Below are positions 15,046 to 34,136 of a DNA stretch of 64,000 nucleotides, in pieces. This DNA comes from Paracoccaceae bacterium (GTDB lineage: Bacteria > Pseudomonadota > Alphaproteobacteria > Rhodobacterales > Rhodobacteraceae). Within the stretch, counting starts at the first letter, position 1. Each line of letters opens with the position of its first letter. Both the position numbers and the translations under genes were made by a program. The notes under the pieces are model-generated. The model was not told where the DNA came from, did no database searches, and was given only the letters and a program-made list of their open reading frames with translations. The DNA lies in NCBI GenBank assembly GCA_033344815.1, contig JAWPMR010000001.1:3272136-3336135 (forward strand), in the 5' to 3' direction.

Positions 15046-15834
15046 ATGGCGGATTTTGAAGATTTGATCTGGCACGATGACAGGATGGTTTTGGACGGCT
15101 GGACCTTCCGGCTAGAACACACGCCCGGCGACAATTGGCCAGAAAGCATCGAGTACTTTCGTTTATTCAAAACCCGCGACGTTATTGATCAGTATCACCG
15201 GTTCTGGCGAGCGCACGGTGCTTTGGCACCCGAGTTCCACCCTCTCCATGTTCTTGAGTTGGGTATCTGGGACGGCGCCAGCGCTGCGCTGTGGGCGGAG
15301 CTTCTGGCACCCGAGCGCTTGGTCGCTGTCGATCTGGCTCGGCGCAACGATAGCGCCTACTTTGAGAAATTCCGTAGAACTCGCGGCCATGGCGCGCGCC
15401 TGGTCACGCGGTGGGCGACCGATCAATCCGATCGAACGGCTTTGGGCGAGATATTTAACCGCGACTTAGGCGGGCGGCTGGATATGGTGATCGACGATGC
15501 CTCGCACGATCTTTCCGCGACAAAGGCAAGCTTTGAGATCTTGTTCCCCTTGCTGGCGCCAGGTGGCCTCTACTTCATCGAGGACTGGTCCTGGCCGCAT
15601 TGGTACAATTTTCAGTCAGCCGAGCATCCATGGTCGAATAGGGCGCCGCTCAGCCGGTTGGCCGAGACGCTGATGCGGGCGGCTGGGTCGATGCCGGATG
15701 ATGGCCCAAAGATGATCACGTCGCTGTTCGTGCAGCGCGATGTTCTGGCTGTCGAGCGCGGCACGCGGCAGGTCGGGGCTCCAGCCGAATTTCGATTGAA
15801 GGACTATGCCCTAATTCGTCCGCAAGATCGCTGA
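15046..15834 (+). CDS. Class I SAM-dependent methyltransferase (Methyltransf_24-like)
   Basis: The 262-residue protein has a Rossmann-type methyltransferase core: a nucleotide-binding motif around HVLELGIWDGASA, an acidic strand end in LVAVDLA, and LDMVIDDASHD followed by FEILFPLLAPGGLYFIEDW. This resembles the methyltransferases of sugar and natural-product pathways related to cephalosporin-hydroxylase-like and Methyltransf_24 families. It is the leftmost gene of the island cargo, transcribed away from the oxygenase genes and separated from them by 62 bases (convergent). Substrate is unknown. Confidence 0.75.
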   Translation: MADFEDLIWHDDRMVLDGWTFRLEHTPGDNWPESIEYFRLFKTRDVIDQYHRFWRAHGALAPEFHPLHVLELGIWDGASAALWAELLAPERLVAVDLARRNDSAYFEKFRRTRGHGARLVTRWATDQSDRTALGEIFNRDLGGRLDMVIDDASHDLSATKASFEILFPLLAPGGLYFIEDWSWPHWYNFQSAEHPWSNRAPLSRLAETLMRAAGSMPDDGPKMITSLFVQRDVLAVERGTRQVGAPAEFRLKDYALIRPQDR

Positions 15835-15896
15835 GCATCGACAGCATAGGACGACGGGACATCGCACGAGCAGCCGTACCCTAGAGCAAGCTGGGC

Positions 15897-16679
15897 CTAC
15901 AGGTCGCCAGTTCCGTGGCGCGCGAGCGCATCGGCATAGCGACGATAACTCGGCATTTCCCGCCGACGTTTGCTGACCGGCCAAAGGTTGGTCAGGCTGA
16001 CCGAGAATCCATCGTTCGTTACCCGGTGCCACCAGCAGCTTGGAATATAGATCATCTCGCCGCGCTGGACCGTCAGCGTGATACTGTCTGCGCAAGCCGT
16101 TGCGCGGCTCACCAGATCGCGATCCGTCAGGCTGGAGAAGTTCGAGCAATAGTGGTGGGTGGCATAGGGGGCCAGATCATCCGTTTGCTCGGGTGGGAAA
16201 AGAATAAAGCGTTTGGAGCCCTCGAGCACCAGCACAACGTTGTCTGGCAGATCATAGTGCATGTGCGTTCCACTGCGTCTATTTCCGACAAACAAAACCC
16301 GATTGTCCGGAGGACCGCCCGGACCATTTAAGCACGGCAGGTCTGCGGAAAGGACACCGTCCAAGCTCTCCGCATCGATTGCCGAGATATAGTGCACATC
16401 TGGGTAGTGATCACAGAATACGATGCGCTCCAGAGCGTCAGACGCCGCCATGCGCTTGCGGAAGTATCGCCCGTTGTTAACGTTTGGTCGGGGGTGATAC
16501 ATGCCATCGCAGCTGTACTCAACCCACAGCCTGCTGGTGCCAAGCCTGGTGCTCAATCTGGCTGCGGACCAATTGCCGAGCGCGCAGGGCGAGAGTTTTT
16601 GTGGCAGTACGGCTGGGCGGTACTCGTACCTAGGCGCGTCGATCGTGATCACCCGGCGCCGAAACGACGGGCAGGTCAT
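15897..16679 (-). CDS. Cupin/JmjC-type Fe(II) oxygenase
   Basis: The 260-residue protein looks like the cupin_8/JmjC hydroxylases, which use Fe(II) and 2-oxoglutarate to hydroxylate proteins, peptides or small molecules. The facial triad is visible: His141 and Asp143 in GTHMHYDLPDN, and distal His218 in IPSCWWHRVTN. A Lys in EGSKRFILFPP (about 156) sits where 2-oxoglutarate is often bound. Its ATG overlaps the stop of the upstream methyltransferase gene (ATGA), making it the last gene of a five-gene minus-strand operon. Peptide hydroxylation would suit the context; this is inferred. Confidence 0.8.
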   Translation of the reverse strand: MTCPSFRRRVITIDAPRYEYRPAVLPQKLSPCALGNWSAARLSTRLGTSRLWVEYSCDGMYHPRPNVNNGRYFRKRMAASDALERIVFCDHYPDVHYISAIDAESLDGVLSADLPCLNGPGGPPDNRVLFVGNRRSGTHMHYDLPDNVVLVLEGSKRFILFPPEQTDDLAPYATHHYCSNFSSLTDRDLVSRATACADSITLTVQRGEMIYIPSCWWHRVTNDGFSVSLTNLWPVSKRRREMPSYRRYADALARHGTGDL

Positions 16680-17866
16680 GGATTTGTCCGCATGCAGACC
16701 GCTACGGTACGCACAACCGCAGGCATTTCACCGAACAGGCGCAGCGCCATCGAAACATCGCCTCGCATCCGCATCCTGTCTGCATAGTAAAGCCCCCAGA
16801 ATGAAGACGGCGTGCCGAGTAGCTGGACTAGATCCGCCTCATTCGCGGTCAGGATTACATCCGGTATTCGGCTGGAGACGGTCGCAACCTCGGCGCTTTC
16901 GCCGTCGGAGATCCAGTGGATTCTCTTTAGCGAATCTTCGTCGACAATCTCCAGGCAAACATGCGCCGCGACAGCAAGATGCGCCCCGCCGACCCGGCTC
17001 GATGCTTTCAACATCGCCTGGGGGCTTTGGGCGCCTCCGGGCGCTACGATCTCGCACGGGGCGTCGGTCGCTGGCGGCGCAAGACCTTGCTTTTTCTCCA
17101 GGCGCACCGCACCGAAATGATATCGTACGATCCGGAAGTCGGTGCCCTCAAGCTCGGGCAGAACCATGATCATCGGAGCCGACCCCGGGGCGGGTTCGGT
17201 TGGCAAAGGATCAGGTGCTGCCAGTCCCGAACGGGCGATAATCTCGGTCTGCAGGTCGATAATGGAGACCGGGGGATCACCCAGCGCGCGGGCACCGGCG
17301 CCAAAGTCAAAGGTCAAAAAGAGCTGCCCGTCGGGGCTTAATGCACGGTGGATCTCTGTAAAGAATGATTGGCGTTGGCGTTTCATCAAACCCTCAAAAA
17401 CTGAGATCGAAACGGCAGCGTCGAAGGCTCCGGATTTCACATCCCACCCGCACTCCGGCGCAATCTCCAAGGCACAGAGGCGGTCCGCAATGCCCAGTGC
17501 CGCCGCGTTTGACTGCACGGCAGTTACCGCATGGGGATCGATATCTACGACTGTGACGTGATAGCCAGAAAGGGCCAGTTCATAACAAAAGAGACTGCCG
17601 CCGCCGCCGACATCGAGCACCGAAGATCCGCGACCGAAATCCTCTTGGATACGTAGGGCGGTATGTACATGCTCCCAGTCGCGACCTCGGTCTTGACGCA
17701 ATGCGAGCCCAAGCGACCGCATCTTGAAAACCAACGCGAGATTGCGCTGGCGCTGGGCTGCATAATCGAGTCGGTCGAAGTACGGCGCAAAGCTTTCTGG
17801 GATCGCGGTGTATTGCGGAAGTTTTCCCCCGCGGTTTGCGCGTCGTGCCGAGTGCTGCGCCGTCAT
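16676..17866 (-). CDS. Methyltransferase with C-terminal SCP2-like domain
   Basis: The chosen start (ATG 17864-17866) overlaps the stop of the upstream gene by ATGA; a longer open frame upstream lacks support. Residues about 60-220 are a class I methyltransferase: motif I SVLDVGGGGS (82-91), VTVVDIDPHA, and LSPDGQLFLTFD. The last 100 residues (CLEIVDEDSL ... DVILTANEADLVQLLG ... MRMRGDVSMALRLFG) resemble an SCP2 sterol-carrier fold, which forms a hydrophobic pocket. Such a fusion could present a lipid-like or peptide substrate to the methyltransferase. The SCP2 call is moderately certain; the MT call is firm. Confidence 0.75.
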   Translation of the reverse strand: MTAQHSARRANRGGKLPQYTAIPESFAPYFDRLDYAAQRQRNLALVFKMRSLGLALRQDRGRDWEHVHTALRIQEDFGRGSSVLDVGGGGSLFCYELALSGYHVTVVDIDPHAVTAVQSNAAALGIADRLCALEIAPECGWDVKSGAFDAAVSISVFEGLMKRQRQSFFTEIHRALSPDGQLFLTFDFGAGARALGDPPVSIIDLQTEIIARSGLAAPDPLPTEPAPGSAPMIMVLPELEGTDFRIVRYHFGAVRLEKKQGLAPPATDAPCEIVAPGGAQSPQAMLKASSRVGGAHLAVAAHVCLEIVDEDSLKRIHWISDGESAEVATVSSRIPDVILTANEADLVQLLGTPSSFWGLYYADRMRMRGDVSMALRLFGEMPAVVRTVAVCMRTNP

Positions 17867-18756
17867 GGAGTTCGTCCTGCTTTGTCCAGGTCCAGTATCT
17901 CGGGGCCTCGCGTCGGCCGGTCGCGCCGTAGTCCGGCGAGGAAAATCTCGCGATCTGAGAGAACGGCGAGCGACGCGACATCGTCCGGAATATCGCAGCC
18001 AAGCTGATCGAGTATCGCCCGGAACGCACGCTGAATTCGGGGTCCTAGCATAGAAGCCAGCGCCCGCCGCGCGCAATGGGCCTGGGTGTCCTCGTCATAG
18101 GTGCTGTCTTCGACCGCATAGACTCGAAATACAAGCCAGAGTCCTCGGTCCGGGATCGGCGATGTGTCCAAAGGTCCGGAAAATCCCGGGGAAAGTGCCT
18201 TTTGGCGGACCGCACCAGGCGCCTCCCAAGCATAGATCGTCAACTTTGACAAAGGATGCTCGGATACTCCATCGGCAAACAAAACTGAGTAGCGCCGTGC
18301 CAACGTGTCAAAGCTTGTGTCGCATTCCGTCAGAACGTGGCAAAGCTCTTGGGCAATGCCCTCATCTTCAACAGCGATGTACCCGGCGTGGATCCGCGCG
18401 TATGAATCCGGATCTGCGTCGAAAAGTGCCCGCCCCGCGGTTGCCACATCAGGATGCGCCAGAAACGCTTGCTCTAGCAGGTCTGACTCGAGAGTTTGGA
18501 CCCAAGAATCGATGGTGAGCCCACGAACTGCCAGCCACGAGATTGTTGCGCCGCGGGACAACAAACCATGACGTCGGCGCATCTGGTCCGCTACCGCCTG
18601 CAGTGCCTCGCCATCGCAGATGACGCCCATAGCATCGGCAAGTTGTGCAAGAGCGGTCTGCCGTGCTGCGCGTTGTAGGGTGCCCGGGGGCATGGCGAGC
18701 ACAAGCTGATCGAGAAGCCGGCCGGGAAGATCTGAAGTTGCCGCCATTGATTGCAT
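17863..18756 (-). CDS. Parvulin/PpiC-like peptide-maturation protein
   Basis: The 297-residue protein is soluble, with no signal peptide. Its central region (IHAGYIAVEDEGIAQELC, TSFDTLARRYSVLF, then GPLDTSPIPDRGLWLVFRV) follows the layout of a PpiC/parvulin domain, where a small insertion-prone loop precedes SFDTLARRYS. The C-terminus (LGPRIQRAFRAILDQLG) is helical. Parvulin-like proteins of this size, sometimes annotated as putative peptide maturation system proteins, occur beside RiPP precursors. The start is directly abutting the upstream PhyH stop. Enzymatic activity is not assured; it may act as a chaperone or carrier for the precursor. Confidence 0.6.
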   Translation of the reverse strand: MQSMAATSDLPGRLLDQLVLAMPPGTLQRAARQTALAQLADAMGVICDGEALQAVADQMRRRHGLLSRGATISWLAVRGLTIDSWVQTLESDLLEQAFLAHPDVATAGRALFDADPDSYARIHAGYIAVEDEGIAQELCHVLTECDTSFDTLARRYSVLFADGVSEHPLSKLTIYAWEAPGAVRQKALSPGFSGPLDTSPIPDRGLWLVFRVYAVEDSTYDEDTQAHCARRALASMLGPRIQRAFRAILDQLGCDIPDDVASLAVLSDREIFLAGLRRDRPTRGPEILDLDKAGRTP

Positions 18757-19578
18757 CTATCCTTTTGAGTTCCAGATAACCGGGAACTCGCCTGGTTCCA
18801 GCAGTTGTCCGTCATTCTCTGGTCGGCCGACAGTGCGCTCCTGCGTTGCTGCGGGACGGCAACGGTGGCGTACGTCCTCGCCCGCGCAGCGGACGGAGAA
18901 GGCCCGCCGCCGCCAAGCCGTGGCGTTGCACGGAGCAGCGTGGGCGGTCATTGCATGAAACACTAGGCAATCTCCGGGTTGCATCTCGAAACCGATAATT
19001 GTCGCACCAACGGATTCTGGGTCCTGCATAACTGGCATGTAGCGCGGGCCAAATTCGGCGCCGGTGGTGAAGTCGCGCGGGCTGTACGCCTGCCAGCGGT
19101 GGCTTCCAGCGGCAAAGGTCATGCCTGCGCTCCGAGGAACCGCATCCACTGGCACCCAAATCGAACACATCTGTCGGCCCTCAACGGGCCAGTACGGCAT
19201 ATCCTGGTGCCAGGGTGTCTCCTTTCTTGTCCCGGCTTCCTTCACAATCAGTTGATCGGTGAAGTAGCGGATCGAGCGAGCGCGCATCAGCCGCCCGGCG
19301 AGCTCGGCGGCTGGCGAAGCCAGGACGAACCGCTCGAATGCGGAAAACCGGACGAGACCCTGATCGATGTAGAAGCGCCGACGGACGCCATCGACGAGAA
19401 TGTCTTCGCATGTCTCAAGGGTTGGGGCTGGTGCCGCATCGGCCTGTGTGCAAACCTCACAGAGTGTCTTCATCTCGTCGGGGGTGAATATTTGGCGCAC
19501 ACATGCAACGCCGTCGGTCTCAAAGTCCGTAACCGCTCGGCTCAAGGCCGTGTCGCTGAGGCGATCGCTTAGCAACAT
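18757..19578 (-). CDS. PhyH-type Fe(II)/2-oxoglutarate dioxygenase
   Basis: The 273-residue protein belongs to the phytanoyl-CoA dioxygenase superfamily, whose bacterial members hydroxylate, halogenate or desaturate amino acids and natural products. The iron ligands are visible: His124-x-Asp126 in TPWHQDMPYW and distal His213 in MTAHAAP, with a downstream Arg (RRAFSVR) to bind 2-oxoglutarate. There is a His (HQD) and no Gly/Ala at the Asp position, so hydroxylation rather than halogenation is the simplest guess. It sits second in the minus-strand operon, 22 bases after the other PhyH gene. Confidence 0.85.
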   Translation of the reverse strand: MLLSDRLSDTALSRAVTDFETDGVACVRQIFTPDEMKTLCEVCTQADAAPAPTLETCEDILVDGVRRRFYIDQGLVRFSAFERFVLASPAAELAGRLMRARSIRYFTDQLIVKEAGTRKETPWHQDMPYWPVEGRQMCSIWVPVDAVPRSAGMTFAAGSHRWQAYSPRDFTTGAEFGPRYMPVMQDPESVGATIIGFEMQPGDCLVFHAMTAHAAPCNATAWRRRAFSVRCAGEDVRHRCRPAATQERTVGRPENDGQLLEPGEFPVIWNSKG

Positions 19579-19600
19579 TTACTGTGCTCCTATTGTAGTG

Positions 19601-20416
19601 TCATTCAAACCCTGTATGACCCAGATATGGATGATGGATACGGTATCCGATCAGTTGAAGTACATCTTGGGGAAGCCGATCGAGCCGCTCGCGGGGGACA
19701 GTCAGATAGAAGTTTTCCTCCTGGCGCAGCCAGCCGAGCATCAAAGAGATCGACAGTGCCCGGCGCGGCTGGTCGGTGCGATTGGCGCCCGAACAGTGCA
19801 GCACCCCGCCAAGCAACGGCAGAACTGCGCCGCACGCCATGTCCGTTGTTACAAGCTGTTCTGGTCGAACAGGATCGACCGCATCCAGATCCAGCCGGCC
19901 AGGTCCGATTTTGTCGGGATCGCGCGCCCAGCGATGGCTGCCCGGCACCACCAGTGTGCCGCCATTTTCTGTCGTGAAATCGGTCATTGGAATAAGGAAG
20001 TTGATAACCGCCACCGGTCGGGGCCACGGCATCGGCCAGATCACATCGTCGCGGTGAATTGTACCCTGCGCGCTGCCTGGCTGAACCTCTATCAGGTGAA
20101 TCGCCGAAAGCTGGTAGGACGCGCAATGTGGCAACAAGAATCGCGTAGCGATGTTGTGGAGCAAATCTGATTGCAGAATTGGAACTATAGCCAGCGTTTT
20201 GGCCAGAACCGCGCCAACCCGCGCCGCGCCAGCGGCGAGCTCGCGCCGCAGGCGCGCACGATCCGTCGCAAGATATGGCGCTAGATCATCGTCGATCCGC
20301 TGGATCAGAGCCGGATCGATCACATCGCGGATCGCCGCCACGCCATCGCGTTCTAGCGCGCCGAGCATATCCTCGACGTCGGATTGACTGTTGAACTCTT
20401 CCAGTTGGGTGTTCAT
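19601..20416 (-). CDS. PhyH-type Fe(II)/2-oxoglutarate dioxygenase, first gene of operon
   Basis: A second PhyH-superfamily protein, 271 residues from the ATG at 20414-20416 (a start seven codons earlier is open but has no better ribosome site). Ligands are His121 and Asp123 in GTIHRDDVIW and His207 in GGVLHCSGANR, with an Arg in DQPRRALSISLMLGW for 2-oxoglutarate. It is clearly distinct from the neighbouring oxygenase, so the pathway likely has sequential oxidations. It faces the GNAT gene across a 139-base divergent region that should hold promoters for both directions. Confidence 0.85.
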   Translation of the reverse strand: MNTQLEEFNSQSDVEDMLGALERDGVAAIRDVIDPALIQRIDDDLAPYLATDRARLRRELAAGAARVGAVLAKTLAIVPILQSDLLHNIATRFLLPHCASYQLSAIHLIEVQPGSAQGTIHRDDVIWPMPWPRPVAVINFLIPMTDFTTENGGTLVVPGSHRWARDPDKIGPGRLDLDAVDPVRPEQLVTTDMACGAVLPLLGGVLHCSGANRTDQPRRALSISLMLGWLRQEENFYLTVPRERLDRLPQDVLQLIGYRIHHPYLGHTGFE

Positions 20417-20555
20417 GGCTGTCTCGCAAAGGCACATCGTCTATAAGTAAAGGAATAATCCCAGTAAAGGCGTACCTGTTACGAAAAGTCCACTTGGCAG
20501 CGAATTCGCCCGTTGCTATTCTTCCCGGTGTTAAAAAAAGGAGTGGCCAGAACAG

Positions 20556-21053
20556 ATGGATCTTGCGCTGGTAGCAGACTTTCCCGATCTCATTCCTACG
20601 CTCGGTGAGTGGTATCGCAATAGCTGTCCGGAAGAGAAGGAATCAGGACGTGACCCGGAGGATGATTTCCGCGGCTGTGCCAACCGCGATACGTTACCGA
20701 TAGCGCTGGTTGCGCTGCAGAATGGCGAGCCCGTTGGAGCGACCTTCGTCCTCGGAACTGTATCGCGGGCGGACCCGGCTCTAGGTCCTTGGCTGGATGG
20801 CGGTTTCGTGCCGTCATCGGAACGGCACAATGAAATATGCATGTTCATGAAAGTCGGATCGATCGCGCTTTGCCACAAAATGGGATTCGTGCGTGTCAAT
20901 CAAGGTGTGCGCTCGGAAACTGCAGCGCAGTGGTATGAGAAGAAGGGCTGGGTCCGATTCGATCTGCCCGGCAGTAATGATCCATCGGCGATATATCTGA
21001 CGCGTAGTACTGAAGCACTGAAGGCACCCGCCGGACGACGTTGGTGTTTTTAG
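20556..21053 (+). CDS. GNAT-family N-acetyltransferase
   Basis: This 165-residue protein resembles GNAT acetyltransferases, which move an acetyl group from acetyl-CoA to an amine. The central strand pattern (LPIALVALQNGEPVGATFVLG) and the C-terminal YEKKGWVRF segment are characteristic. The acetyl-CoA loop in the middle (VGSIALCHKMGF) is short and divergent, so catalytic competence is not assured. A GGAG sits about twelve bases before the ATG. It is divergent from the oxygenase operon and upstream of the glycosyltransferase; it could acetylate a product amine or provide self-protection. Confidence 0.65.
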   Translation: MDLALVADFPDLIPTLGEWYRNSCPEEKESGRDPEDDFRGCANRDTLPIALVALQNGEPVGATFVLGTVSRADPALGPWLDGGFVPSSERHNEICMFMKVGSIALCHKMGFVRVNQGVRSETAAQWYEKKGWVRFDLPGSNDPSAIYLTRSTEALKAPAGRRWCF

Positions 21054-21060
21054 CTCCGCG

Positions 21061-21080
21061 AAGGATCTATAAGGATCTAT
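21061..21080 (+). repeat. Perfect tandem decamer
   Basis: AAGGATCTAT occurs twice in direct tandem between the GNAT gene and the glycosyltransferase, about 100 bases upstream of the latter's chosen start. It might be a regulator binding site or replication slippage. Confidence 0.5.
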
Positions 21081-21178
21081 ATCGTGAAAAGTTCCCGTCG
21101 CAGAACGCAAAGCGAAGTATGGAATAGGTGTCTTTGTGTAGGTCTAACGGTGCACGAACAGCGGCCCGTAAGCATTTG

Positions 21179-22354
21179 ATGCGGGTCTCTCTTATCACTC
21201 TAGACGGCCTCTTCCCGCCAGCGCATGGTGGGGCTCATGTCCTGCAGATGATCGCTCAGGGACTTGCAGAGCTCGGGCACGATGTTTCTTGCCTGATCCG
21301 ACTGGCCGACGAAGATGCTAGCGATCTCACCGATCAGACAGTCGCGGGCCTTGCCGCGAGCGGTTTGAGGTATTCGCGATCATCAAGTGGTGTGGTGCGA
21401 TTCAAGAGTGGGGCGCTCAGCGGCGCAGGCGTCATCGATGCTGGCGGGCGGTTCCTTCCGTTCGTTCTATCCGAACTCCGGCGCACGGGCGCGGAGACCG
21501 TTATTATGTCGGATATCGGAGGCAGGCCCGCGCACACGTTGCTCTCAGTCATCGCCGAGCGGTTCACGGGAATGTTGGTGTATGCACCGCAAACTGTCCA
21601 CTTTTTGCCTGGCGGGCCGCTCGCGGTTCAGGCTGACCCTGCTGCCACAAAGGCGATGCGCCTTTGCCGCGTGGTCGTACCGAGCCAGTACTTGGCGGCC
21701 TATCTTCGGCAGCACTTGGGAATAGCGGCGCGCGTTAACCTGCCGCCGTTGTTTGCGCTTTCGGAAGTGCCGCCGCGACCGCAGCCCTTTGGTGGGCCGG
21801 TTGGCGTATTCAATCCTAACACATGGAAGGGGCTGCCGATCTTGCTGGCACTTGCCGACCGGCGGCCGGATTTGCAGTTTCTGGTACGGTGCGGCTGGCG
21901 GACTCTTCATACCGAGCGTGATGCCTTGTCGCAGCGCGGCAACGTTATCATTGAGGACCACTCCCATGACGGCGGAACGGTATATGATCAAGCGTCGATC
22001 ATCCTCGTACCGTCGCTCTGCTATGAATCGTTGGGCCTCGTTTCGATTGAGGCGATGCTGCGTGGCCTGCCCGTTGTAAGTGCGCGACATGGCGGTTTAG
22101 CCGAGGCCGGCCTCGGAACTGCAGTGCTTTGTACTGCGGTGCCAATCGTTTTCGAGGACGACCGGAAAAATCCAGGAGGTCACGTGCGCCAGCACGTGCC
22201 CGAGCAACCTCTCGATGACTGGCTCGCCGCTATCGACCGTCTGACCAACGACCGGGCTTGGTACGAGCAGCGCGCGCGACATGCCATTATCAGGTCGCAT
22301 GCATTCGCGCGCAGTCTGACTTGGGAGTCGACCGAGCGCTCCTTTTTGGGCTAG
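21179..22354 (+). CDS. GT4-like glycosyltransferase
   Basis: The product (391 residues from the ATG at 21179; an upstream GTG-type start at 21128 adds 17 unconvincing residues) is a GT-B-fold glycosyltransferase. The N-terminus MRVSLITLDGLFPPAHGGA shows the usual nucleotide-sugar-enzyme opening with the glycine-rich acceptor loop. The C-terminal half holds the ExxxxxxxE retaining-enzyme motif in YESLGLVSIEAM and PVVSARHGGLAE. It probably glycosylates the pathway product. It converges with the ligase gene, with 23 bases between the stops. Confidence 0.82.
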   Translation: MRVSLITLDGLFPPAHGGAHVLQMIAQGLAELGHDVSCLIRLADEDASDLTDQTVAGLAASGLRYSRSSSGVVRFKSGALSGAGVIDAGGRFLPFVLSELRRTGAETVIMSDIGGRPAHTLLSVIAERFTGMLVYAPQTVHFLPGGPLAVQADPAATKAMRLCRVVVPSQYLAAYLRQHLGIAARVNLPPLFALSEVPPRPQPFGGPVGVFNPNTWKGLPILLALADRRPDLQFLVRCGWRTLHTERDALSQRGNVIIEDHSHDGGTVYDQASIILVPSLCYESLGLVSIEAMLRGLPVVSARHGGLAEAGLGTAVLCTAVPIVFEDDRKNPGGHVRQHVPEQPLDDWLAAIDRLTNDRAWYEQRARHAIIRSHAFARSLTWESTERSFLG

Positions 22355-22377
22355 AATATTGATGGTACAGCATGATT

Positions 22378-24111
22378 TCAGCCAAGCAGCGTTTTGCCGT
22401 CTTCCGTGGCGTGCATGAACTGGGCACCACCGGATTCCCACAGCTGGCGATAATGACGATGTCGGCGCTTTCCACTGATGGTCGTCGCAAGCGTGTTGGG
22501 GGCCAACGTTACTACTTCGTCAGGCACGACCCCGAGTTTCTCCGCCGCGCTGCGACGGATGGCACGCAGCGCCTGGGTCTTGGCATCGTTTGAGGTTAGC
22601 TCAACGATCAATACGATCCGCTCTGTCCCGCGCTCTGGGTCGACCGCTCCGAAGGCCGCGAAGCGCCCGGCATCGACGCCTTCGATATCCTCTAAAACCG
22701 CCGTGAACTCGTCCGGGTCGATCTTGCGGCCGCGTATATTTATGGCGTCTTGTGACCGGCCGATCCAAAAGAGTTGACCATGGCGGAGATATCCAAGGTC
22801 TCCGGTCAACAGTAGCTTACCTTCGAACATAGCATCCGTGGCAGCCTGATCGTAGAGATACCCTTCGAACCGCGACGGGCTGTCGAGCACGATCTGCCCT
22901 ACCGTGCGCTCAGAAAGAGCACGGCCGTAGTCATCCCGAGTCAATACCGACAATCCTGGCCATGGTGCGCCCACAGTAGCGACGTCAGAACGTCGGGCGC
23001 CAGCGCTCCAGTCGGCTGCAATTCTACGCGTCTCAATTGCCCCGGCATCAAGCGAATCGACCAATAGCGGCGAGTCACCAGTCGAGGAAAAAGTTGCACC
23101 GCCGGTGTTTTCGGCCAAACCGTAGTTCGCCCGCAATGTCTCAGGGCGTAGCCCAGTACCGGATAGTGTCTCGAGCATCGCGGAAATGCTCGACGGTAGT
23201 ACTCTCTCGCCCGCGTTCCAGATTGCGCGGATCCCGGATAGCGACAGTCCAGCAATTAGATCCGGATCGACACGGTCGGCGATCTGGCGCAGTGCGAAGT
23301 TCGGTGCCGCGGTAATAGTGGCACCGCTTGCGTGCAACCCTCTCAGCCACATGGCCGGGTTACCGGCGAAGACCTGCGGGCTCATAAATGTTGCTGGTAT
23401 GCCATGCAAGAGCGAGACGAACAGGAAATTTAGCAGTCCGACGGTGTGGTGCAGGCCCGACCACGAGAAGAACCGGTCGCCGGGGCCAAGGGCCATAGAA
23501 TGTGCGACACCGGCGATAGCCGTTCGCATTGCCGGAGCATGCCAAATACAAACCCGGCTTGCTCCAGTGGTACCCGATGTCAGCTGCAATGCGTGGCAAC
23601 GCGCAATGCGATTCGCACGCCTTGGTAATTCTATAACCACCGTAGCAGTTTCAAGCGCCGCGAGATGGAGACACATAACGGGTGCGCCAGACGCTTCCAC
23701 TAAGTCTCTCGCTGCAGCAATCTGAGAGTGATTTCGCGTTGCCACGAGAACGACACGAGCATCGGTTATGGCTTGGGCGTGGGTCAAGACGGCCGTCGCG
23801 TTTGAAAAGCCCCCATCAAGCGCAGGTAGGACCAATGGCGGACAGCCCACGAGCACCGCGGCAACGATACAAATTGCGGCGTCCACTTCACCATCGCCGA
23901 ACGGCATGATGAGCACAGGCTCGGCTGCCATGAGCCCCGCATGGACAAGTCCGTATGCGACCGTTCGGGCCTGCGTCAGAACTTCCCCGCGTGTGCGCCA
24001 GATAAGCTCTCCGTCGCGATAGTACTGAGCCAAGGCTAGAGCGCTGGGGTTATGAGACAGCGCAGCCTCGACTTCAGCGGCGAATGCGGTATTCGGCTTA
24101 TCGGACTTCAA
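22378..24111 (-). CDS. Adenylate-forming ligase (acyl/amino-acid activating)
   Basis: The 577-residue protein is an ANL-superfamily enzyme that makes an acyl-adenylate, then a thioester. Visible motifs: LQLTSGTTGASRV (A3 phosphate loop), YGLAENTG (A5), LLTGDLGYL then GRSQDAINIRGRKIDPDEF (A7-A8), and ISGKRRHRHY with the terminal catalytic Lys (A10). It has no fused carrier domain. The acyl-carrier domain of the gene upstream is the likely acceptor. Start is TTG 24109-24111 behind AAAGGAGA. Pocket residues were not read, so the acid substrate is unknown. Confidence 0.85.
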   Translation of the reverse strand: MKSDKPNTAFAAEVEAALSHNPSALALAQYYRDGELIWRTRGEVLTQARTVAYGLVHAGLMAAEPVLIMPFGDGEVDAAICIVAAVLVGCPPLVLPALDGGFSNATAVLTHAQAITDARVVLVATRNHSQIAAARDLVEASGAPVMCLHLAALETATVVIELPRRANRIARCHALQLTSGTTGASRVCIWHAPAMRTAIAGVAHSMALGPGDRFFSWSGLHHTVGLLNFLFVSLLHGIPATFMSPQVFAGNPAMWLRGLHASGATITAAPNFALRQIADRVDPDLIAGLSLSGIRAIWNAGERVLPSSISAMLETLSGTGLRPETLRANYGLAENTGGATFSSTGDSPLLVDSLDAGAIETRRIAADWSAGARRSDVATVGAPWPGLSVLTRDDYGRALSERTVGQIVLDSPSRFEGYLYDQAATDAMFEGKLLLTGDLGYLRHGQLFWIGRSQDAINIRGRKIDPDEFTAVLEDIEGVDAGRFAAFGAVDPERGTERIVLIVELTSNDAKTQALRAIRRSAAEKLGVVPDEVVTLAPNTLATTISGKRRHRHYRQLWESGGAQFMHATEDGKTLLG

Positions 24112-24201
24112 ATGAGGTCTCCTTTCGGCTCATTTGTTCGGCGTTGGCGGGCTTTCGTATCGGAATCAGGCCACAATAACTGCGCAATAGTGTCGGCAAG
24201 G

Positions 24202-26382
24202 CTATCTTCGCCCAGTGCAGTCGGAAGCGTCGTCATGGGAGCTTTGCGCTTGGCTCCGTTGCAGCGCCCTTTGAAAGAGAGCTTGCAAATTGGTTACCTC
24301 GAATAGATTGGCACTTCCACGCTCCCAACTTTCAAGCTCGACGTCAAGAGCCTCCTCAATCGCGGCAATCACTTGAGCCAGTCCCAGTGAGTCGATTCCC
24401 AAATCCGCAATGTGTTCTAAATCATCCGGCGGCGCTTGGCCGGCTTCTTTTGAAATTACGGTGTTGATCACTTGTGCGAGCTGTTGCTTGCCATATGACG
24501 CAGGGTCGGCCCCAGGATTTTCCCCTTTCGATGTTAGGTTTCGTGGTCCGTCTTCGCGTGGCCTGGGCAACTTTGGTTCAAGTTCGGGCGCGCGGAGAAT
24601 GATCTCGCGCATCCGCCATAGCTCGTGGCGGCCGAGTCGGACGACATTCGACGCCTCTGCGTCAGGTACGTCTGTAATGTCAGCCCACAAAACGGCTTGC
24701 GCACCGGCCGCTGTGGCGATTCTGGAAATCTGGTCGCGTTTGTCCCGGTTTACAATGGTCGACGCGATCATGTCGCGGCTGAAGAGCGAATCCAATCTGG
24801 CAGAGGTTTCTGGCATGCCCTTTTGTAGATCCGCTTTGTCCATGTCAGAGAGGCAGATCAACCGATGGCCCCGGCGCCAGAGCGTGCCGAGTGCTTCCGA
24901 TATCCCAGCGAACCGGAAGTCTTGAACATCGGCCAAGAAATTAGTCATTGACGCGCGCGCGAGCCCACGATCATCCGCGTCCAGCGGCCACAACAGCCCG
25001 CGCGGCTCGAAAACAATCGCATGGACTCCTGGCGCATCGAGCCGGCGCAGTATACGCAAGATCTCCATCGTAACGCCAAGGGCTGGATCGGGCTGGCCCG
25101 CACCAGGCGGCGGCGGGCGCTCCGGTGGGCTAGCGGCATCGGGTCGGTGGGGGACCCATGACCAAGAGCTCATCGGCGCGCGATGGGCAGATGCATTTAT
25201 CATATCATCCCAATATCGAGGAATTCCCAGCCGCTCGCGCGCATCGATTTCATCGATCAGTACCGCTGGTGGAACCGTCTCCAATGCTTCGCAGACGGCT
25301 AGGTTGATCCTGCAGAACAAATCGCGCAGCCGGAAGGCATCGGCAGAACCCGGGGCATGGATGCCGAGCGCCGGCGGATGTGCGGCGACAACGGCGATCG
25401 GTGCCGGCGACTTGGAGCGGACCTGTTGCAGCCAGCCCTCAATTGTCTCAACTACCCGCGCCATCAGCGCTTCTGCATCAGTCCATGCGCCGCGTGCTGC
25501 GAATTGAACGACATAGGGAACGAACTGGCCGGCGCTTATGACGATAAGATCAGGTGGGTTTGGCCCCAAGTCATCTTCGGGCGCGACGATGCTATGAATG
25601 TCGATCGCATAACCCGCCGCATATCCATGAAACACTAGGCACTCGGCGAATTGCTGAGCGATGCAGGGCCCGATCAGCGCGATTCTGCGCGCGGCGCTCG
25701 GCCGATCGATGCGAGCGACTGTAAATGGGCGGTGGATCTGGCGGTATTGGTCGTCCGGCCGCGTCACTAATCGTAGATTTGGAAGCATCTCCAAGTCTAG
25801 CCTCAGCCGATGCGCCGCCGCGGCTTGCTCCTGCTCGGCGGACTGGCAGAGCAGCAGCCGACTGAACAGAAACGCCCAGATATGGCACTCGGTTGAATCG
25901 ATGCTCCTGCCGTCAGCGAATGTTTGTAGATAAGCCCAAAGGCCCGCATCCAGCTGGGTCACCGGGCCGGCAGCGTGTGTAACAAGCCAGTTGCCGTTTG
26001 TCAGGCTGAGCGAAGTGATAGCGCGCGACAGATAGAGACGCCCGGTCGGGAGAGAAGGCTCGGACGGCTCTAGTGTGCTGAGGCTGCACAACTCGATCTC
26101 ACGTGCGGCTAAACTGGCGGCTTCGGCATAAGCTTGGCGAATTTGCCCAGCTTCGCTGACACCAGAACCGGCATCCGCGGACCAGATCAAGCCCGCGTCA
26201 GACATAGCCTCAGTGAGCTGCGTCGCTGTGGCGCTTTCCCAGTTTTGGCGCCGGAATTCACCGACATGCGGCGGTCCGAGAACCAAGCGTTTGCGGCCCA
26301 GAATATGGGACAATATGAGGTGCTTTTCCCCGATAGGGCAAAAGGCGACTAGCTTGCTCAACGAAATCGACTGTACTGCCAT
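24202..26382 (-). CDS. FkbH-like (inactive HAD) protein fused to acyl carrier domain
   Basis: About 726 residues from ATG 26380-26382 (a TTG four codons earlier is possible). A central SGNH-like section (IALIGPCIAQQFAECLV), then a HAD-like section, matches the FkbH layout. In FkbH the HAD loop DLDNTLW dephosphorylates glycerate-type substrates for loading. Here it reads FEPRGLLW, with neither Asp, so the phosphatase chemistry is probably gone. The C-terminal 80 residues are a carrier domain with DLGIDSLGL, Ser665 being the phosphopantetheine site. It sits between the precursor gene and the ligase, suggesting the ligase loads it. A tethering role with non-catalytic HAD is inferred. Confidence 0.7.
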   Translation of the reverse strand: MAVQSISLSKLVAFCPIGEKHLILSHILGRKRLVLGPPHVGEFRRQNWESATATQLTEAMSDAGLIWSADAGSGVSEAGQIRQAYAEAASLAAREIELCSLSTLEPSEPSLPTGRLYLSRAITSLSLTNGNWLVTHAAGPVTQLDAGLWAYLQTFADGRSIDSTECHIWAFLFSRLLLCQSAEQEQAAAAHRLRLDLEMLPNLRLVTRPDDQYRQIHRPFTVARIDRPSAARRIALIGPCIAQQFAECLVFHGYAAGYAIDIHSIVAPEDDLGPNPPDLIVISAGQFVPYVVQFAARGAWTDAEALMARVVETIEGWLQQVRSKSPAPIAVVAAHPPALGIHAPGSADAFRLRDLFCRINLAVCEALETVPPAVLIDEIDARERLGIPRYWDDMINASAHRAPMSSWSWVPHRPDAASPPERPPPPGAGQPDPALGVTMEILRILRRLDAPGVHAIVFEPRGLLWPLDADDRGLARASMTNFLADVQDFRFAGISEALGTLWRRGHRLICLSDMDKADLQKGMPETSARLDSLFSRDMIASTIVNRDKRDQISRIATAAGAQAVLWADITDVPDAEASNVVRLGRHELWRMREIILRAPELEPKLPRPREDGPRNLTSKGENPGADPASYGKQQLAQVINTVISKEAGQAPPDDLEHIADLGIDSLGLAQVIAAIEEALDVELESWERGSANLFEVTNLQALFQRALQRSQAQSSHDDASDCTGRR

Positions 26383-26481
26383 CTGATGATACAAATACGC
26401 TTAGCGACACGGCAAATAGTGTCAACGGAAAGCCTACACTGCCAAACGCTTTTCAAGCCTTCCCATTTGGGAAAACAGGCT

Positions 26482-26658
26482 TCAACCGCGAACTCCGGCG
26501 CACAGATTAGGAAGCGAGGCGTTGTCGCCGTTTTCTTCCTCAGCTTCCAATTCATCAATCTTGATCTTGCGAATCTTCTCTTTGGCGGCCTCCTTGCTGG
26601 CTTTGTCTTTGGTGTCCTTCTTGTCGGCGGTTGGCTTGTCGCTTGCTTTTTTGCTCAT
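26482..26658 (-). CDS. Candidate RiPP precursor peptide (58 residues)
   Basis: The short gene runs ATG 26656-26658 to TGA 26482-26484, preceded by GGAATGGGATC. The product begins MSKKASDKPTADKKDTKD, a Lys/Asp/Ala-rich start, then an amphipathic helix KIRKIKIDELEAEEEN, and ends DNASLPNLCAGVRG. That shape, a charged helical leader and a short C-terminal core with Asn, Ser, Pro and one Cys, is typical of ribosomally made modified peptides. It stands 99 bases upstream of the FkbH-like/carrier gene on the same strand and beside oxygenases and a maturation protein. Translation has not been tested. It could instead be an unrelated small basic protein. Confidence 0.6.
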   Translation of the reverse strand: MSKKASDKPTADKKDTKDKASKEAAKEKIRKIKIDELEAEEENGDNASLPNLCAGVRG

Positions 26659-26810
26659 GATCCCATTCCATAATCTCTAGCACAGGATTAACCCTGTTGC
26701 ACGATGATCCTGTCAAGTTAGTTTGCCTTCGGCAAGCGGATCATCGGCATGCGGGCACCCCAATTGCCCTGCAGGACAAACAGATACCCTCCTGCATTCC
26801 AGGCTGAACA

Positions 26811-26984
26811 TCCCGCGACAAGGCCATCCGGTATAACAAGCGCCGATACAAGCGGCGCAACCGCATCGAGATAATGTTCGGTCGGCTGAAGGACTGGCGT
26901 TGGGTCGTAACCCGCTATGACATAAGCCCGAAGGTGTTCCTGTCCGCCGTCACCCTCGCCGCAGCCATCATATTCTGGCTATGA
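26811..26984 (+). pseudogene. IS5-family transposase C-terminal remnant
   Basis: The plus-strand frame from about 26811 to the TGA at 26982-26984 encodes RYNKRRYKRRNRIEIMFGRL followed by KDWRWVVTRYD and LAAAIIFWL. This is the familiar C-terminal end (YxxRxxIExxFGRLK-WRR) of IS5/IS1182-like transposases. The upstream two-thirds is missing and no inverted repeat pair was found. It marks past transposition next to the precursor gene. Confidence 0.75.
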
Positions 26985-27237
26985 ACGTCAATGAGTCCGG
27001 AGCCTGGTCTTGGCCTCGTTGTTCGTCGCAATCAAACCGCGCAGTGATTTCGAAGAAAGATGATGATTGAGGTGCCACTTCCGCTCATGGAGGATCGGAC
27101 CGAAACTCAAGTGGCGTGAGACACTTGGGCCTTATGCACCTGCGGATCGTGTGCATAGGGCGTATCGGCGCGCTCCTTTTGAGGTGCGAAGGCTGAAGTC
27201 GCGCCGTCCGCACCTTTTCACGCCGCGCTTGCCGATT
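26985..27237. other. Non-coding gap
   Basis: No gene or structured signal is evident between the IS5-family remnant and the recombinase 3' end. Confidence 0.4.
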
Positions 27238-29013
27238 CTACGCCGCAAGCTGAGGCACCACGCCCTCCACCAACCGCAGAAATCGTGAATTGCGAGTCCC
27301 CGCAACCAACGATAATTGCGAATCCTCCGCTGACCCTGCCGCGGAGGTTTTTGCTTTTTGGGGCCCAGCGCACAGAGATCGTCTGTTGCGCCCTCCCGCA
27401 ACCAACTCAAATTGCGATTGACCCGCCCTTGTGGTGGGTTTTTTGCGTTTTAGGGAAATGCCAAGGATTCCAGCAAGATCGCCCCTCACATCGATGAGCA
27501 TTTCGTCGTCGGTCGGCGTCAAAATTATCTCATCGACGAGTGAGCGCAAAATCTCCGTGGCCTCCAGTCGTTTGGCCTCGATTTCGTCCTGCAGGGAGGA
27601 ATGCAGTTTCTCGACCTGCAGGCGGTAGAATCCCGCCATTTCGGGATGTAGCAGCGGGGGCGGCTCATCGGCGTTGGCGAGCAAAATTTCGAGTTCCAGC
27701 TTCCTGCTTTCCAGCAGCTTGCTCTTTTCCTTCACCATTTCCACCGGTAGAACATCGTTGAGAAAGAGTTGAAGTATCTTGTCTAACTCTCGATCAATTT
27801 TTGCCAGCTCAGTTCGCCCAGCCTCGATCGTTGATCGCTCTTCAATCCGAAGGCGGTTCATTTCGCCTGTAAACTCATCGCAGAATTCTTTGAACAAGAC
27901 CGGTTCCATTAGGTGATGACGTAAGGCACCCAACACACGATCTTCCAGATGATCACGGCGTATGTTTTTGCGATTGTCGCACGTCCCCTTGTTCCGGGCT
28001 GTCGCACACCCGACAAGATCAGCCGAGATCATGGTGTAGCCACCACCGCAGCACGCGCATTTGGTTAGCCCAGAGAACAGATATTTGGGGCGGCGGCGGT
28101 CGCGGAAATGATTTTCCGATGTCGGTTCGCCACCACGCTTGTGCTTAAGTTGCGATTGCCGTTCTTTTACAGACGCCCACAGGTCATCATCGACAATACG
28201 AAGTTCCGGGACTTCATGGATGATCCACTCATCTTCGGGGTTCATCCGCGCTTGCCGACGGCCCGTATCTGGATCCTTCAGGAAACGTTGTCGGTTCCAG
28301 ATCAGCCGCCCGATGTATATCTCATTGTTCAAAATGCCGGTGCCACGCTTGGCGTTGCCGTTGATGGTGCTGAACCCCCAATCGCCACCGCTGGGTGCTC
28401 GGATACCGTCCTTGTTCAATTCGGTCGCGATGCGCTTGGGTGATTTCCCAGAGACGTAGTCCGTCAGGATTCGGCGGATCACACCTGCTTCGTACTCGTT
28501 GATCGTTCGGTCACCCCTTATGGGCTCCCCTTCCGACGAGAACTTCTTCACGACGTCATATCCATAGGCGTTACCGCCTCCTGATTTTCCCATCTCAACG
28601 CGTCCACGAAGGCCCCGGCGCGTTTTGTCGGCCAAGTCCTTCAGAAAGAGGGCGTTCATCGTTCCCTTGAGCCCGACATGGAGGTGCGTGATTTCGCCTT
28701 CGGACAGCGTGACAATCTTTACGTCCGCATATGCCATTCGCTTGTGAAGGCCCGCGATATCTTCCTGATCGCGGGACAGTCGATCCATTGCCTCCGACAA
28801 GACCAAGCTGAAGCGTCCGCGAAGGGCATCTTCGATCAAGGCCTGGATACCTGGCCTCAGAAGAGATGCGCCGGACACGGCGTGGTCAGAGTATTCTTCA
28901 ACGATAGTCCAGCCCTGCTTCTCAGCATGTAATCGGCACACCCTGAACTGGTCTGCGATCGACGCATCCCTTTGGTTGTCGCTTGAATATCTGGCGTACA
29001 GGGCGATTTTCAC
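27238..29013 (-). CDS. Large serine recombinase (site-specific integrase)
   Basis: About 591 residues. The N-terminal resolvase domain begins KIALYARYSSDNQRDAS with catalytic Ser, followed by the recombinase domain (RILTDYVSGKSPKRIATEL), a zinc ribbon (KCACCGG ... CATARNKGTC) and a coiled-coil. The start was placed at GTG 29011-29013 because CAGGAGA lies just upstream and it clears the stop of the preceding small gene (29033). The last about 60 codons read through the att-like repeats (LVAGG..., LVAGT...), so the native C-terminus is uncertain. It probably integrated this island at a tRNA-fMet-like end. Confidence 0.88.
   Translation of the reverse strand: MKIALYARYSSDNQRDASIADQFRVCRLHAEKQGWTIVEEYSDHAVSGASLLRPGIQALIEDALRGRFSLVLSEAMDRLSRDQEDIAGLHKRMAYADVKIVTLSEGEITHLHVGLKGTMNALFLKDLADKTRRGLRGRVEMGKSGGGNAYGYDVVKKFSSEGEPIRGDRTINEYEAGVIRRILTDYVSGKSPKRIATELNKDGIRAPSGGDWGFSTINGNAKRGTGILNNEIYIGRLIWNRQRFLKDPDTGRRQARMNPEDEWIIHEVPELRIVDDDLWASVKERQSQLKHKRGGEPTSENHFRDRRRPKYLFSGLTKCACCGGGYTMISADLVGCATARNKGTCDNRKNIRRDHLEDRVLGALRHHLMEPVLFKEFCDEFTGEMNRLRIEERSTIEAGRTELAKIDRELDKILQLFLNDVLPVEMVKEKSKLLESRKLELEILLANADEPPPLLHPEMAGFYRLQVEKLHSSLQDEIEAKRLEATEILRSLVDEIILTPTDDEMLIDVRGDLAGILGISLKRKKPTTRAGQSQFELVAGGRNRRSLCAGPQKAKTSAAGSAEDSQLSLVAGTRNSRFLRLVEGVVPQLAA
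27275..27311 (+). repeat. Right att-like repeat resembling tRNA-fMet 3' end
   Basis: This 37-base segment matches 14190-14226 at 31 of 37 positions and carries TCCCCGCAACCAA (27297-27309), like an initiator tRNA acceptor end. It lies inside the recombinase 3' coding region. Confidence 0.6.
27324..27356 (+). terminator. Intrinsic terminator
   Basis: CCTCCGC (27324-27330) and GCGGAGG (27341-27347) form a perfect seven-pair stem with a ten-base loop, followed by TTTTTGCTTTTT. It reads on the plus strand, directly after the tRNA-end-like repeat. Confidence 0.75.
27386..27415 (+). repeat. Second right tRNA-3'-end-like repeat
   Basis: TTGCGCCCTCCCGCAACCAA begins at 27386 and again resembles a tRNA-fMet end followed by ATTGCG. 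It mirrors the doublet at the left boundary. Confidence 0.5.
27421..27446 (+). terminator. Intrinsic terminator
   Basis: ACCCGCC (27421-27427) pairs with GGTGGGT (27433-27439, one G-T pair), followed by TTTTTTG. This hairpin after a tRNA-end-like repeat is what commonly ends an rRNA/tRNA-fMet transcript. Confidence 0.65.
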
Positions 29014-29032
29014 AATTCGATCTCCTGAAACA

Positions 29033-29212
29033 TCAGGAGCGCGGCTGTCGACGTGCTCCCGACTGCTGGTCATACCATTCTCGTGCAGCACGACGCGCTA
29101 GAAGGCGAACCAACTCGGCCAAGCGCGGGTCATGGCTTCCGGCGGAACTCGTAAGGCTCAAGAGACGACCGGGATCGTCTTTGCCTTTTCGATGTGCCTT
29201 CGGCTTGGTCAT
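29033..29212 (-). CDS. Small protein upstream of the serine recombinase
   Basis: The 59-residue product (ATG 29210-29212) begins MTKPKAHRKGKDDPGR and has a helical LAELVRLLARRAAREWYDQ segment. The Trp/Tyr-rich basic helix and the position 19 bases before the recombinase fit the small accessory genes often found beside such integrases. It may be a directionality or DNA-binding cofactor. No family can be named. Confidence 0.6.
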   Translation of the reverse strand: MTKPKAHRKGKDDPGRLLSLTSSAGSHDPRLAELVRLLARRAAREWYDQQSGARRQPRS

Positions 29213-29475
29213 TATACCGCTGTCCGACTCAAATGGAAGATAACTCCATTGCCACAATCGCGGACATGAGCAGTTGGAGCAACTTTGCAGAGAGCGAAGT
29301 CTGGCGTGCCAATAAGCGCTTGTGGCGATGTTTTGTTACGCTGGCGAAAAACAGCGCAATATGCCGTAGTGCAAATACTTGCTCATTTCGGTGCCTCTTG
29401 GCGCCTGCCCAACTGCTTCTGGGCCGTTTGCTATCTGACTTAACCATCACAAACCAATTGCCCATATCTTGTCCG
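29213..29475. other. Non-coding gap between island and trb operon 2
   Basis: No gene is supported. It is the junction between the recombinase genes and the DUF2274 gene of trb operon 2. Confidence 0.4.
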
Positions 29476-29736
29476 TTACTTGGGACGCGCCCCAGACAGC
29501 TGTTGGGCAGCCGATTCTTGCGTTTCGCGCCTCAGCTTTGCAAAGCCGCGATCCGTCGCCATGAAGCGTTCGACCATCGGTGCGATCAATTTTGCGGGGT
29601 CCTGGATGGTTTGTCCGGTCTCCTTCTCCAGCACCGTTGCATACGCGATCAGATCGCGATGGACGGGTGCGGGCAGTTCGACCGTCAGCTTGACCGGTTT
29701 GTCATCCGACAAAGCGCCCAGTTTTAATTTCGTCAT
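29476..29736 (-). CDS. DUF2274 protein at end of trb operon 2
   Basis: The 86-residue protein begins MTKLKLGALSDDKPVKLTVE and carries VHRDLIAYATVL, the hallmarks of DUF2274, a small family typically found after trbI in alphaproteobacterial conjugation clusters. Its function is not known. Its ATG overlaps the trbI stop (TGATG). The decayed counterpart in operon 1 lies at 7680-7804. It is the last gene of the operon. Confidence 0.88.
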   Translation of the reverse strand: MTKLKLGALSDDKPVKLTVELPAPVHRDLIAYATVLEKETGQTIQDPAKLIAPMVERFMATDRGFAKLRRETQESAAQQLSGARPK

Positions 29737-30908
29737 CAGTGGCCTCCTTGTGGTTCGAGGATCAGATCGCGGGTCACGATCACACGCACCGGAAACCCCG
29801 GTCGGATCGTCAGGGTCGGTGGCACATCGATCTGACGACGGACAATCTCGCGGCCAGCATCTCCGATGGTGTCCTGTGCGCCGTCGCGGATGGCACTGGC
29901 GATGGGGTCTTCATCGTCTGCACCCAACTCGGTGCCGATGTTGAGCAGGGTCGAAAGCGCCGCGGCCCTGAACAGTCCATCCCAATGGTGATCGACACCG
30001 TCCTCAAGGCCTGCATATCCCGCGCTATCGGCCCCGGGTTGCCGTTCCAGAACGATGGAATGGCCATCGGGCAAGATGATCCGGGTCCACAGAAGCAGGA
30101 TGCGGCGTTGTCCGAAGCCGACAACATTGTCGTATTCGCCGATGAGTCGCGATCCTTGCGGCAGCAGGAGGTAGCGGCCTGACGGGCTGTCATAGACGTG
30201 TTGGGTCACTTGGGCGACAACTTGGCCGGGGAGGTCGGAACGAATGCCTGAGACGAGGGCGGCGGGAATGACGGACCCTGCCTGAAGGATGTAAGGTGAG
30301 GCGGGCGGTGTCACCCTGTCGGGGGCAACGATGCGACGGTCGACGGGGGCATTGAGGAAGGCCAGTTGCCGATCCTGATCCGTCTGAGCTGCGCTACCTG
30401 GTTGCGATGCGGGGAAACTGTTCGGTGGTGTGGCACCGGGTGCCGCGAAGCCAGAAGGTGCGGTCGGTGATTGCGTTGCAAAGAACACTTCACTGGTACG
30501 GGCTGCCTCTTCTTCGGCCAGACGGCGCTGCTCGGCCGGATCGGGTCCCGGCATCGGCGAGGCGGGGACGGGTTGTCCTGCGTCTTGGGTTCGCAGGATA
30601 GGGCGCCCGAGGTCTCCGGGCAGCGCGGGTCCGAGTTGCGGGATGCCGCTATAATCTGAAGGCAGGCGGCGCAATTCGTCGGCGGTGGGGCGGTTTTCGG
30701 TCGTGAAGAGCTCACCGGGGCGATCTCGGGCCGGGCGGTCCTGCAAGGCAAAGATTAACGCGCCACCGATGCCGACGGCGGTGATCACGGCGAGGCCACC
30801 GAGGACCTTGCGGGACAGGCGCACGACGCGGGCCGGTTCTGGCCGCAGCCGGAAGGGGTCTGCAGAGCCGGGCAACGGTGCCTCGGGATCTTGAGCTGAC
30901 GAGGTCAT
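29736..30908 (-). CDS. trbI: TrbI channel protein (VirB10-like), operon 2
   Basis: 390 residues. A transmembrane segment lies near residues 33-50, followed by a Pro-rich linker (RLAEEEAARTSEVFF within) and a C-terminal VirB10 domain with SPYILQAGSVIPAALVSG and LLPQGSRLIGEYDNV. It shares these motifs with the copy at 6539-7678 while the linker differs greatly, so the two operons have diverged for some time. It overlaps trbG by four bases and DUF2274 by one. Confidence 0.94.
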   Translation of the reverse strand: MTSSAQDPEAPLPGSADPFRLRPEPARVVRLSRKVLGGLAVITAVGIGGALIFALQDRPARDRPGELFTTENRPTADELRRLPSDYSGIPQLGPALPGDLGRPILRTQDAGQPVPASPMPGPDPAEQRRLAEEEAARTSEVFFATQSPTAPSGFAAPGATPPNSFPASQPGSAAQTDQDRQLAFLNAPVDRRIVAPDRVTPPASPYILQAGSVIPAALVSGIRSDLPGQVVAQVTQHVYDSPSGRYLLLPQGSRLIGEYDNVVGFGQRRILLLWTRIILPDGHSIVLERQPGADSAGYAGLEDGVDHHWDGLFRAAALSTLLNIGTELGADDEDPIASAIRDGAQDTIGDAGREIVRRQIDVPPTLTIRPGFPVRVIVTRDLILEPQGGH

Positions 30909-33854: not shown

Positions 33855-33858
33855 TGGT

Positions 33859-34128: not shown

Positions 34129-34136
34129 CTCCCGTC

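Follow-up and report, generated by a model that had tools for sequence, protein, structure and literature searches.

Proteins of the TIGR04500 type are among those associated with the ATP-grasp loci of graspetides (PMC8939145). In the rosaritide system (MirA/MirB/MirC, group 21 graspetides), the TIGR04500 protein MirC is needed for this RiPP: no mass shift came from the synthetase without MirC or from MirC without the synthetase, both MirC domains were required, MirC copurified with the synthetase, and its N-domain is weakly RRE-like (PMC13097080). Lipolanthines, goadvionins and selidamides carry an acyl group on a ribosomal peptide, and the characterised lipidated RiPPs are described with GNATs and lanthionine synthetases in two further papers (PMC9505594, PMC13060382). 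GNAT clusters without a lanthionine synthetase have already been reported in PMC13060382, so that absence alone would not be new. The phaeornamide cluster has a putative Fe/2OG hydroxylase and a marine alphaproteobacterium as its source.

We analysed a window of 64,000 nucleotides, the whole stretch of DNA under study, from a single-contig genome of 5.08 Mb. It contains a locus that shares with the rosaritide system (PMC13097080) a precursor-like peptide and a TIGR04500-type partner. In contrast to that system, neither a graspetide ATP-grasp synthetase nor a peptidase-ABC exporter was matched among the island proteins scanned, and the N-domain of MirC has no counterpart in the match of the window protein, which covers model positions 129-327 only. 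An acyl group on the ribosomal peptide is proposed here as in the lipidated RiPPs; unlike those that have been characterised, the window has a ligase/ACP pair, no lanthionine synthetase in our scans and a GNAT-like protein that lacks the P-loop. An Fe/2OG-type oxygenase and an alphaproteobacterial host are shared with the phaeornamide cluster. Our best reading is that the locus encodes a candidate orphan, acyl-carrier-linked RiPP precursor, with no known class-defining enzyme seen. That a 58-aa ORF is the precursor of this small modified peptide is a tentative assignment, to which we give a little less than even confidence.

The first-pass annotation had placed an overlooked short gene at 26482..26658. 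The ORF is present on the minus strand, with an ATG start and 58 aa plus stop. Its product, the candidate precursor, is rich in Lys, Glu and Asp, with the highest Lys+Glu+Asp fraction of all 561 ORFs in the window that reach 40 aa, and it has one Cys and a compact tail with few charged residues. We found its synonymous codon usage to be close to that in the island genes (z 2.9, matched by 0 of 1000 simulations; 0.0005 of 2000 in a separate run), with a rank of 8/243 among window ORFs of 45-75 aa. An antisense ORF of 52 aa with a TTG start (26522-26680, plus strand) ranked 3/243, as good as the peptide, and therefore codon usage did not settle the strand. These ranks would fit a 58-aa ORF that is untranslated, being either a mirror of the hydrophobic antisense ORF or a product of chance. 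We regard this as highly improbable, given the extreme charge of the peptide among the 561 ORFs, the position of its gene, the fold that follows its stop, the TTG with which the antisense ORF begins, and the fact that the hydrophobicity of that ORF is expected from the complement of Lys/Glu codons.

No match to the peptide was found in Pfam or NCBIfam. It was among five proteins that gave nothing in PADLOC at 1e-3, and PHROGs returned only phrog_3002 (function unknown) at E 0.87. These results bear on whether the peptide could instead be a small regulator, a nucleic-acid-binding or accessory protein, or a recombinase/IS passenger, and not a substrate. Its high charge would agree with such a role, as would the presumably IS5-like transposase tail and the serine recombinase directly upstream. 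However, having just one Cys and a tail that is compact and largely free of charge would be atypical of such proteins, and this, together with the profile searches, makes the role improbable.

Searches for relatives returned the peptide itself and no other match in its own genome and in 260 genomes of the class (1/260), and found none in the six TIGR04500-bearing genomes. Among 390 genomes of the order three matched, namely the peptide itself and two at E ~0.1, both dismissed on reading. One of these lay within an Arg/Ala-rich 133-aa ORF; the second fell on a charged linker within what we take to be a TadC-like secretion protein. BLAST against 72,556 plasmid records and 50,697 phage records gave no credible relative, a weak negative because its low-complexity filter may mask the charged leader; a scan of IMG/VR gave none, likewise a weak negative as it requires near-identical 8-mers, and the best match in the PDB had E 1.8. 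The first-pass annotation had suggested that a conserved leader and a variable core might be seen beside similar genes. As no homologue was found to compare, there was no leader/core pattern to set against this expectation. It is possible that the cluster is rare or evolves fast.

We read from the sequence an inverted repeat without a T-run directly after the peptide stop (26455..26481, minus), at which the terminator listing for the minus strand has no entry. The 66 nt following the stop (26425-26490, minus) gave a fold of -23.7 kcal/mol with z -2.5, and 2 of 200 shuffles were equally stable. The repeat is possibly an attenuator or a processing site between the precursor and enzyme genes. Within 26400-27300 there are two exact TTGACA boxes on the minus strand, one upstream of the peptide (26716-26711) and one between the peptide and carrier genes (26425-26420). 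The former belongs to a promoter-like site found by eye, with an 18-nt spacer and a weak -10 of GTTAAT (26687..26716, minus). The promoter scan listed neither box. Its sole site (26415-26386) is weak, 0.5 such sites being expected from chance alone, and the promoter evidence near the peptide is weak. The carrier gene, whose ATG lies ~100 bases after the peptide stop, could have its own promoter at the second box. Because of this box, and because the scan rejected both, a single promoter for the peptide, carrier and ligase genes is not established. Rfam gave nothing at gathering scores across window positions 14000-30000.

The gene that had been called parvulin-like does encode a parvulin-related protein, at 17863..18756 (minus), and its NCBIfam match is to the TIGR04500-type (PpiC-related) proteins. 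At E 1e-5 the single model matched was TIGR04500, 'putative peptide maturation system protein' (43.7 bits, E 2e-11). At a limit of 0.1 a PPIase model came second with E 0.03, so that TIGR04500 is closer than other PPIase models, and Pfam gave no match at a limit of 10. The support from this match is tempered by a score below the curated cut-off of 180 bits, by its start at model position 129, and by the 29-30 bits that the same model also gives to three ORFs that we take to be SurA-like. A role in peptide maturation here would follow from what is known of the family. Through this protein the RiPP reading is now better supported than it was in the first-pass annotation. It relies on the TIGR04500-type protein, the layout of the genes and the composition of the peptide, and remains circumstantial. 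A short gene near modification genes and a TIGR04500-type protein in a coupled operon ~6 kb away speak for a precursor, and the lack of relatives and of a class-defining enzyme speaks against it. A single-sequence structure model of the TIGR04500-type protein had a mean pLDDT of 37.0 and was discarded.

A search of 398 phylum genomes with this protein gave matches in 5 at E 1e-3, its own included. The TIGR04500 model at 1e-6 matched 10 of the 398, again including the own genome, and none exceeded the cut-off; all eight proteins scanned with the model were under 180 bits (43.7-97.9). Three of the nine matches outside the own genome were set aside as SurA-like, which is our reading of ORFs of 451-490 aa scoring 29-30 bits. 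The six proteobacterial relatives that we inspected were all located in peptide-export islands. Five of them have a C39-peptidase ABC exporter adjoining or close by; the sixth, on a 4.6-kb contig, adjoins an HlyD gene. We take these islands with PpiC-related proteins to resemble NHLM. The window has a related TIGR04500-type protein in common with them, whereas no C39-ABC exporter or HlyD gene was found among its island proteins scanned. One plasmid relative was found, in Tolypothrix, where the surrounding genes include HopA1, APH and peptidase-ABC genes and one for an 82-aa peptide. On that plasmid (4975-5223 and 6647-10367) the small precursor-like peptide is accompanied, besides HopA1 and APH, by an aldo/keto reductase gene and two convergent TIGR04500-type genes, and the peptidase-ABC exporter is further on. 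From its sequence we read the 82-aa peptide as a putative RiPP precursor, in a region that presumably resembles a class V lanthipeptide cluster.

Downstream of the 58-aa ORF on the same strand is the gene for an orphan carrier protein (24202..26379, minus; the ATG at 26379 was preferred over the TTG at 26394 of the longer frame 24202-26394). The protein consists of an N-terminal 230 aa of no assigned family, a degenerate FkbH-like region and a C-terminal acyl carrier domain (PF00550, E 3e-6) in which the DSL serine motif is kept. A single-sequence structure model of the N-terminal part reached a mean pLDDT of 34.5 and was discarded. FkbH proteins act in glyceryl-ACP formation. The FkbH model TIGR01686 was not among the NCBIfam matches of the carrier protein at E 1, nor did it match in the own genome at 1e-10. 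Of 20 FkbH loci that were fetched, 18 gave a motif-bearing ORF; four long ones were dropped, and we built an FkbH profile from the remaining 14. The profile scored the carrier protein at 21.4 bits, compared with at most -0.3 for 300 shuffles. Furthermore, hhalign against the 14 FkbH proteins gave a probability of 88.5 over 305 columns, compared with 0.3 for a control protein; an earlier round with six FkbH sequences had given 87.1%. The HMM match covers only the portion before the HAD region, and the HAD part was aligned by hhalign alone. In this alignment the FkbH DLDNTLW falls on FEPRGLLW, and both DxD aspartates are gone. Thus, of the FkbH-like/acyl-carrier gene named in the first-pass annotation, a remote homology over ~300 residues and the carrier domain held up, but the catalytic DxD motif is lost and TIGR01686 is unmatched. 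Given this loss, the protein is more likely to be a scaffold than an active FkbH enzyme.

Plasmid records gave no match to the carrier protein, either as a whole (E 1e-5) or as a 368-aa piece (E 10). Of the 398 phylum genomes, 27 had a match at E 0.01, 26 without counting the own genome. Twenty-five of these matches covered only the ACP end (query 587 onward), and the remaining one covered 380-517 and has an in-frame stop. In the genus the gene is present in 1 of 19 genomes, its own, and absent from the 18 other congeners. A scan of a collection of 84,980 species found no relative, a weak negative as the patterns require near-identical 8-mers, and viral scans guided by alignments of the carrier protein found nothing. 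In the literature searched, which was largely without subscription journals, FkbH was not joined with RiPP and precursor peptide, and goadvionin was not joined with acyl carrier protein and GNAT.

The next gene encodes an adenylating enzyme resembling acyl-AMP and acyl-CoA ligases (22378..24111, minus; PF00501, E 1.6e-27). Among NCBIfam models it came closest to one for a long-chain acyl-CoA ligase and one for a fatty acyl-AMP ligase, falling well short of the cut-off in either case, and from what is known of such families it is likely to load the ACP. Plasmid records held 422 matches to the ligase, all below 60% identity, and two remote relatives, at 26-27% identity, turned up in a viral scan. 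A further viral scan, and the 84,980-species collection with its 25 pattern stretches, found no relative; both used strict patterns and are weak negatives. No cluster like that of the window was seen in the annotated neighbourhoods of ligase and PhyH relatives that we inspected. In pearlin and LysW logic, a small molecule is built on a peptide or protein scaffold and then cleaved from it. The 58-aa peptide might serve in the same manner, with attachment at its C-terminal Gly or at its Cys. A charged small protein next to an adenylating enzyme, with no exporter seen, would agree with this. However, no ligase family of the LanB or LysX type was found in our scans and the adenylating enzyme is similar to long-chain acyl-CoA and acyl-AMP ligases, so we consider a scaffold peptide very improbable.

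The remaining enzymes form a compact minus-strand run of PhyH oxygenase 1 (19601..20437), PhyH oxygenase 2 (18757..19578), the TIGR04500-type protein, a class I methyltransferase (16676..17866) and a cupin_8/JmjC hydroxylase (15897..16679). The HxD motif is kept in all three oxygenases. The ATG of the TIGR04500-type gene directly follows the stop of the second PhyH gene, and the next two joints, into the methyltransferase and cupin genes, are ATGA overlaps. The peptide gene is outside this operon, ~6 kb from it, on the same strand and before the carrier and ligase genes. The methyltransferase had no match in plasmid records. All the neighbours named in the first-pass annotation (carrier gene, ligase, oxygenases and recombinase) were recovered by family scans. 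Three plus-strand genes are of uncertain membership in the cluster: a GT4 glycosyltransferase (21128..22354; family scan), a Methyltransf_24 methyltransferase (15046..15834) convergent to the cupin gene, and a candidate GNAT-like acyltransferase (20556..21053). The last has 12 Rhizobium plasmid relatives, 11 of them annotated as GNAT, has no Pfam or NCBIfam match, and lacks the GNAT P-loop [QR]xxGx[GA] as that motif is given in PMC13060382.

The same enzymes could make a non-peptidic, carrier-bound small molecule. The ligase, ACP, oxygenases and methyltransferases would then give a hydroxylated acyl product, the TIGR04500-like protein would be an enzyme chaperone, and the 58-aa ORF would be unrelated. 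RiPP classes are defined by enzymes such as LanM/LanB, YcaO, radical SAM, ATP-grasp and MNIO, and none of these was found among the island proteins scanned. In addition, plasmid relatives of the cupin protein were near NRPS-type genes in all three neighbourhoods inspected, from 12 matching records, and one of two annotated neighbourhoods of PhyH relatives has an adjoining carrier protein, the surrounding region also encoding a PKS and a condensation domain. However, the scans of the island proteins showed no condensation, ketosynthase or thioesterase family, and the TIGR04500 match is specific. We therefore judge a small-molecule cluster to be rather unlikely. A Scytonema plasmid has, at 9833-11600, a JmjC protein adjoining a 'cephalosporin hydroxylase' and an NRPS, and the cupin/JmjC gene of the window likewise adjoins the Methyltransf_24 gene.

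If the 58-aa peptide is a RiPP precursor and thus the substrate of these enzymes, its Lys/Glu/Asp-rich N-terminal part would be the leader, and the tail (about DNASLPNLCAGVRG) would carry the core and the modified residue. The TIGR04500-type protein may hold the precursor or deliver it to the modifying enzymes, as has been proposed for MirC in rosaritide. The core could be modified by the Fe/2OG oxygenases (two PhyH and one cupin_8) and the methyltransferase, while the ligase would adenylate an acid and load it onto the carrier domain that forms one protein with the degenerate FkbH-like region. The acyl group would then be handed from the carrier domain to the peptide, and leader removal and export of the product would be expected. 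No exporter and no leader peptidase were found among the island proteins scanned, which is a real gap in this reading. The full scheme with acyl transfer to the peptide, which we infer from the ligase/ACP pair, is unlikely as it stands.

Slightly less probable still is the further proposal that the locus represents a new RiPP class. Here a degenerate FkbH-like scaffold with a built-in carrier, loaded by a dedicated AMP ligase, would pass an oxygenase-tailored acyl group to a ribosomal peptide presented by the TIGR04500-type protein. Such a class would combine ribosomal peptide chemistry with carrier-protein logic without a PKS, an NRPS or a lanthionine synthetase. The main reading, if right, would connect a ribosomal peptide with a ligase/ACP pair dedicated to it and extend the use of TIGR04500-type partners beyond graspetides. 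It would also reveal a natural-product cluster that escapes genome mining when the rules look for class enzymes or precursors already known.

The first-pass annotation had described the locus as a recombinase-mobilised island. A family scan identified a serine recombinase next door (27238-29091), on the upstream side of the peptide gene, and the 18 other congeners searched lack the carrier gene. Mobilisation by the recombinase is plausible. The transposase remnant, a C-terminus recognised by eye just upstream of the peptide gene (26830-26985, plus), is one that we take to be IS5-like. The 8-29 kb island is flanked by two trb-type conjugation gene sets in opposite orientation (24-7678, plus, and 29476-39035, minus). 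In the best records, plasmid trb genes share ~75-79% identity with the left set, and the right set was recognised by eye because it resembles the left one. A repeat search gave one 29-nt family of two copies, taken as chance. A low-GC block (8371-13859, plus; ~0.44-0.46) encodes an alpha-amylase-like protein, two ROK proteins, a YdjC-like protein and a pentapeptide-repeat protein. On the other side of the island, an IS240-type DDE transposase (39797-40549, plus) consists of two consecutive same-frame ORFs split by a stop, and the translations of 41312-63429 were recognised by eye as a type VI secretion-like gene set with a PP2C-like phosphatase.
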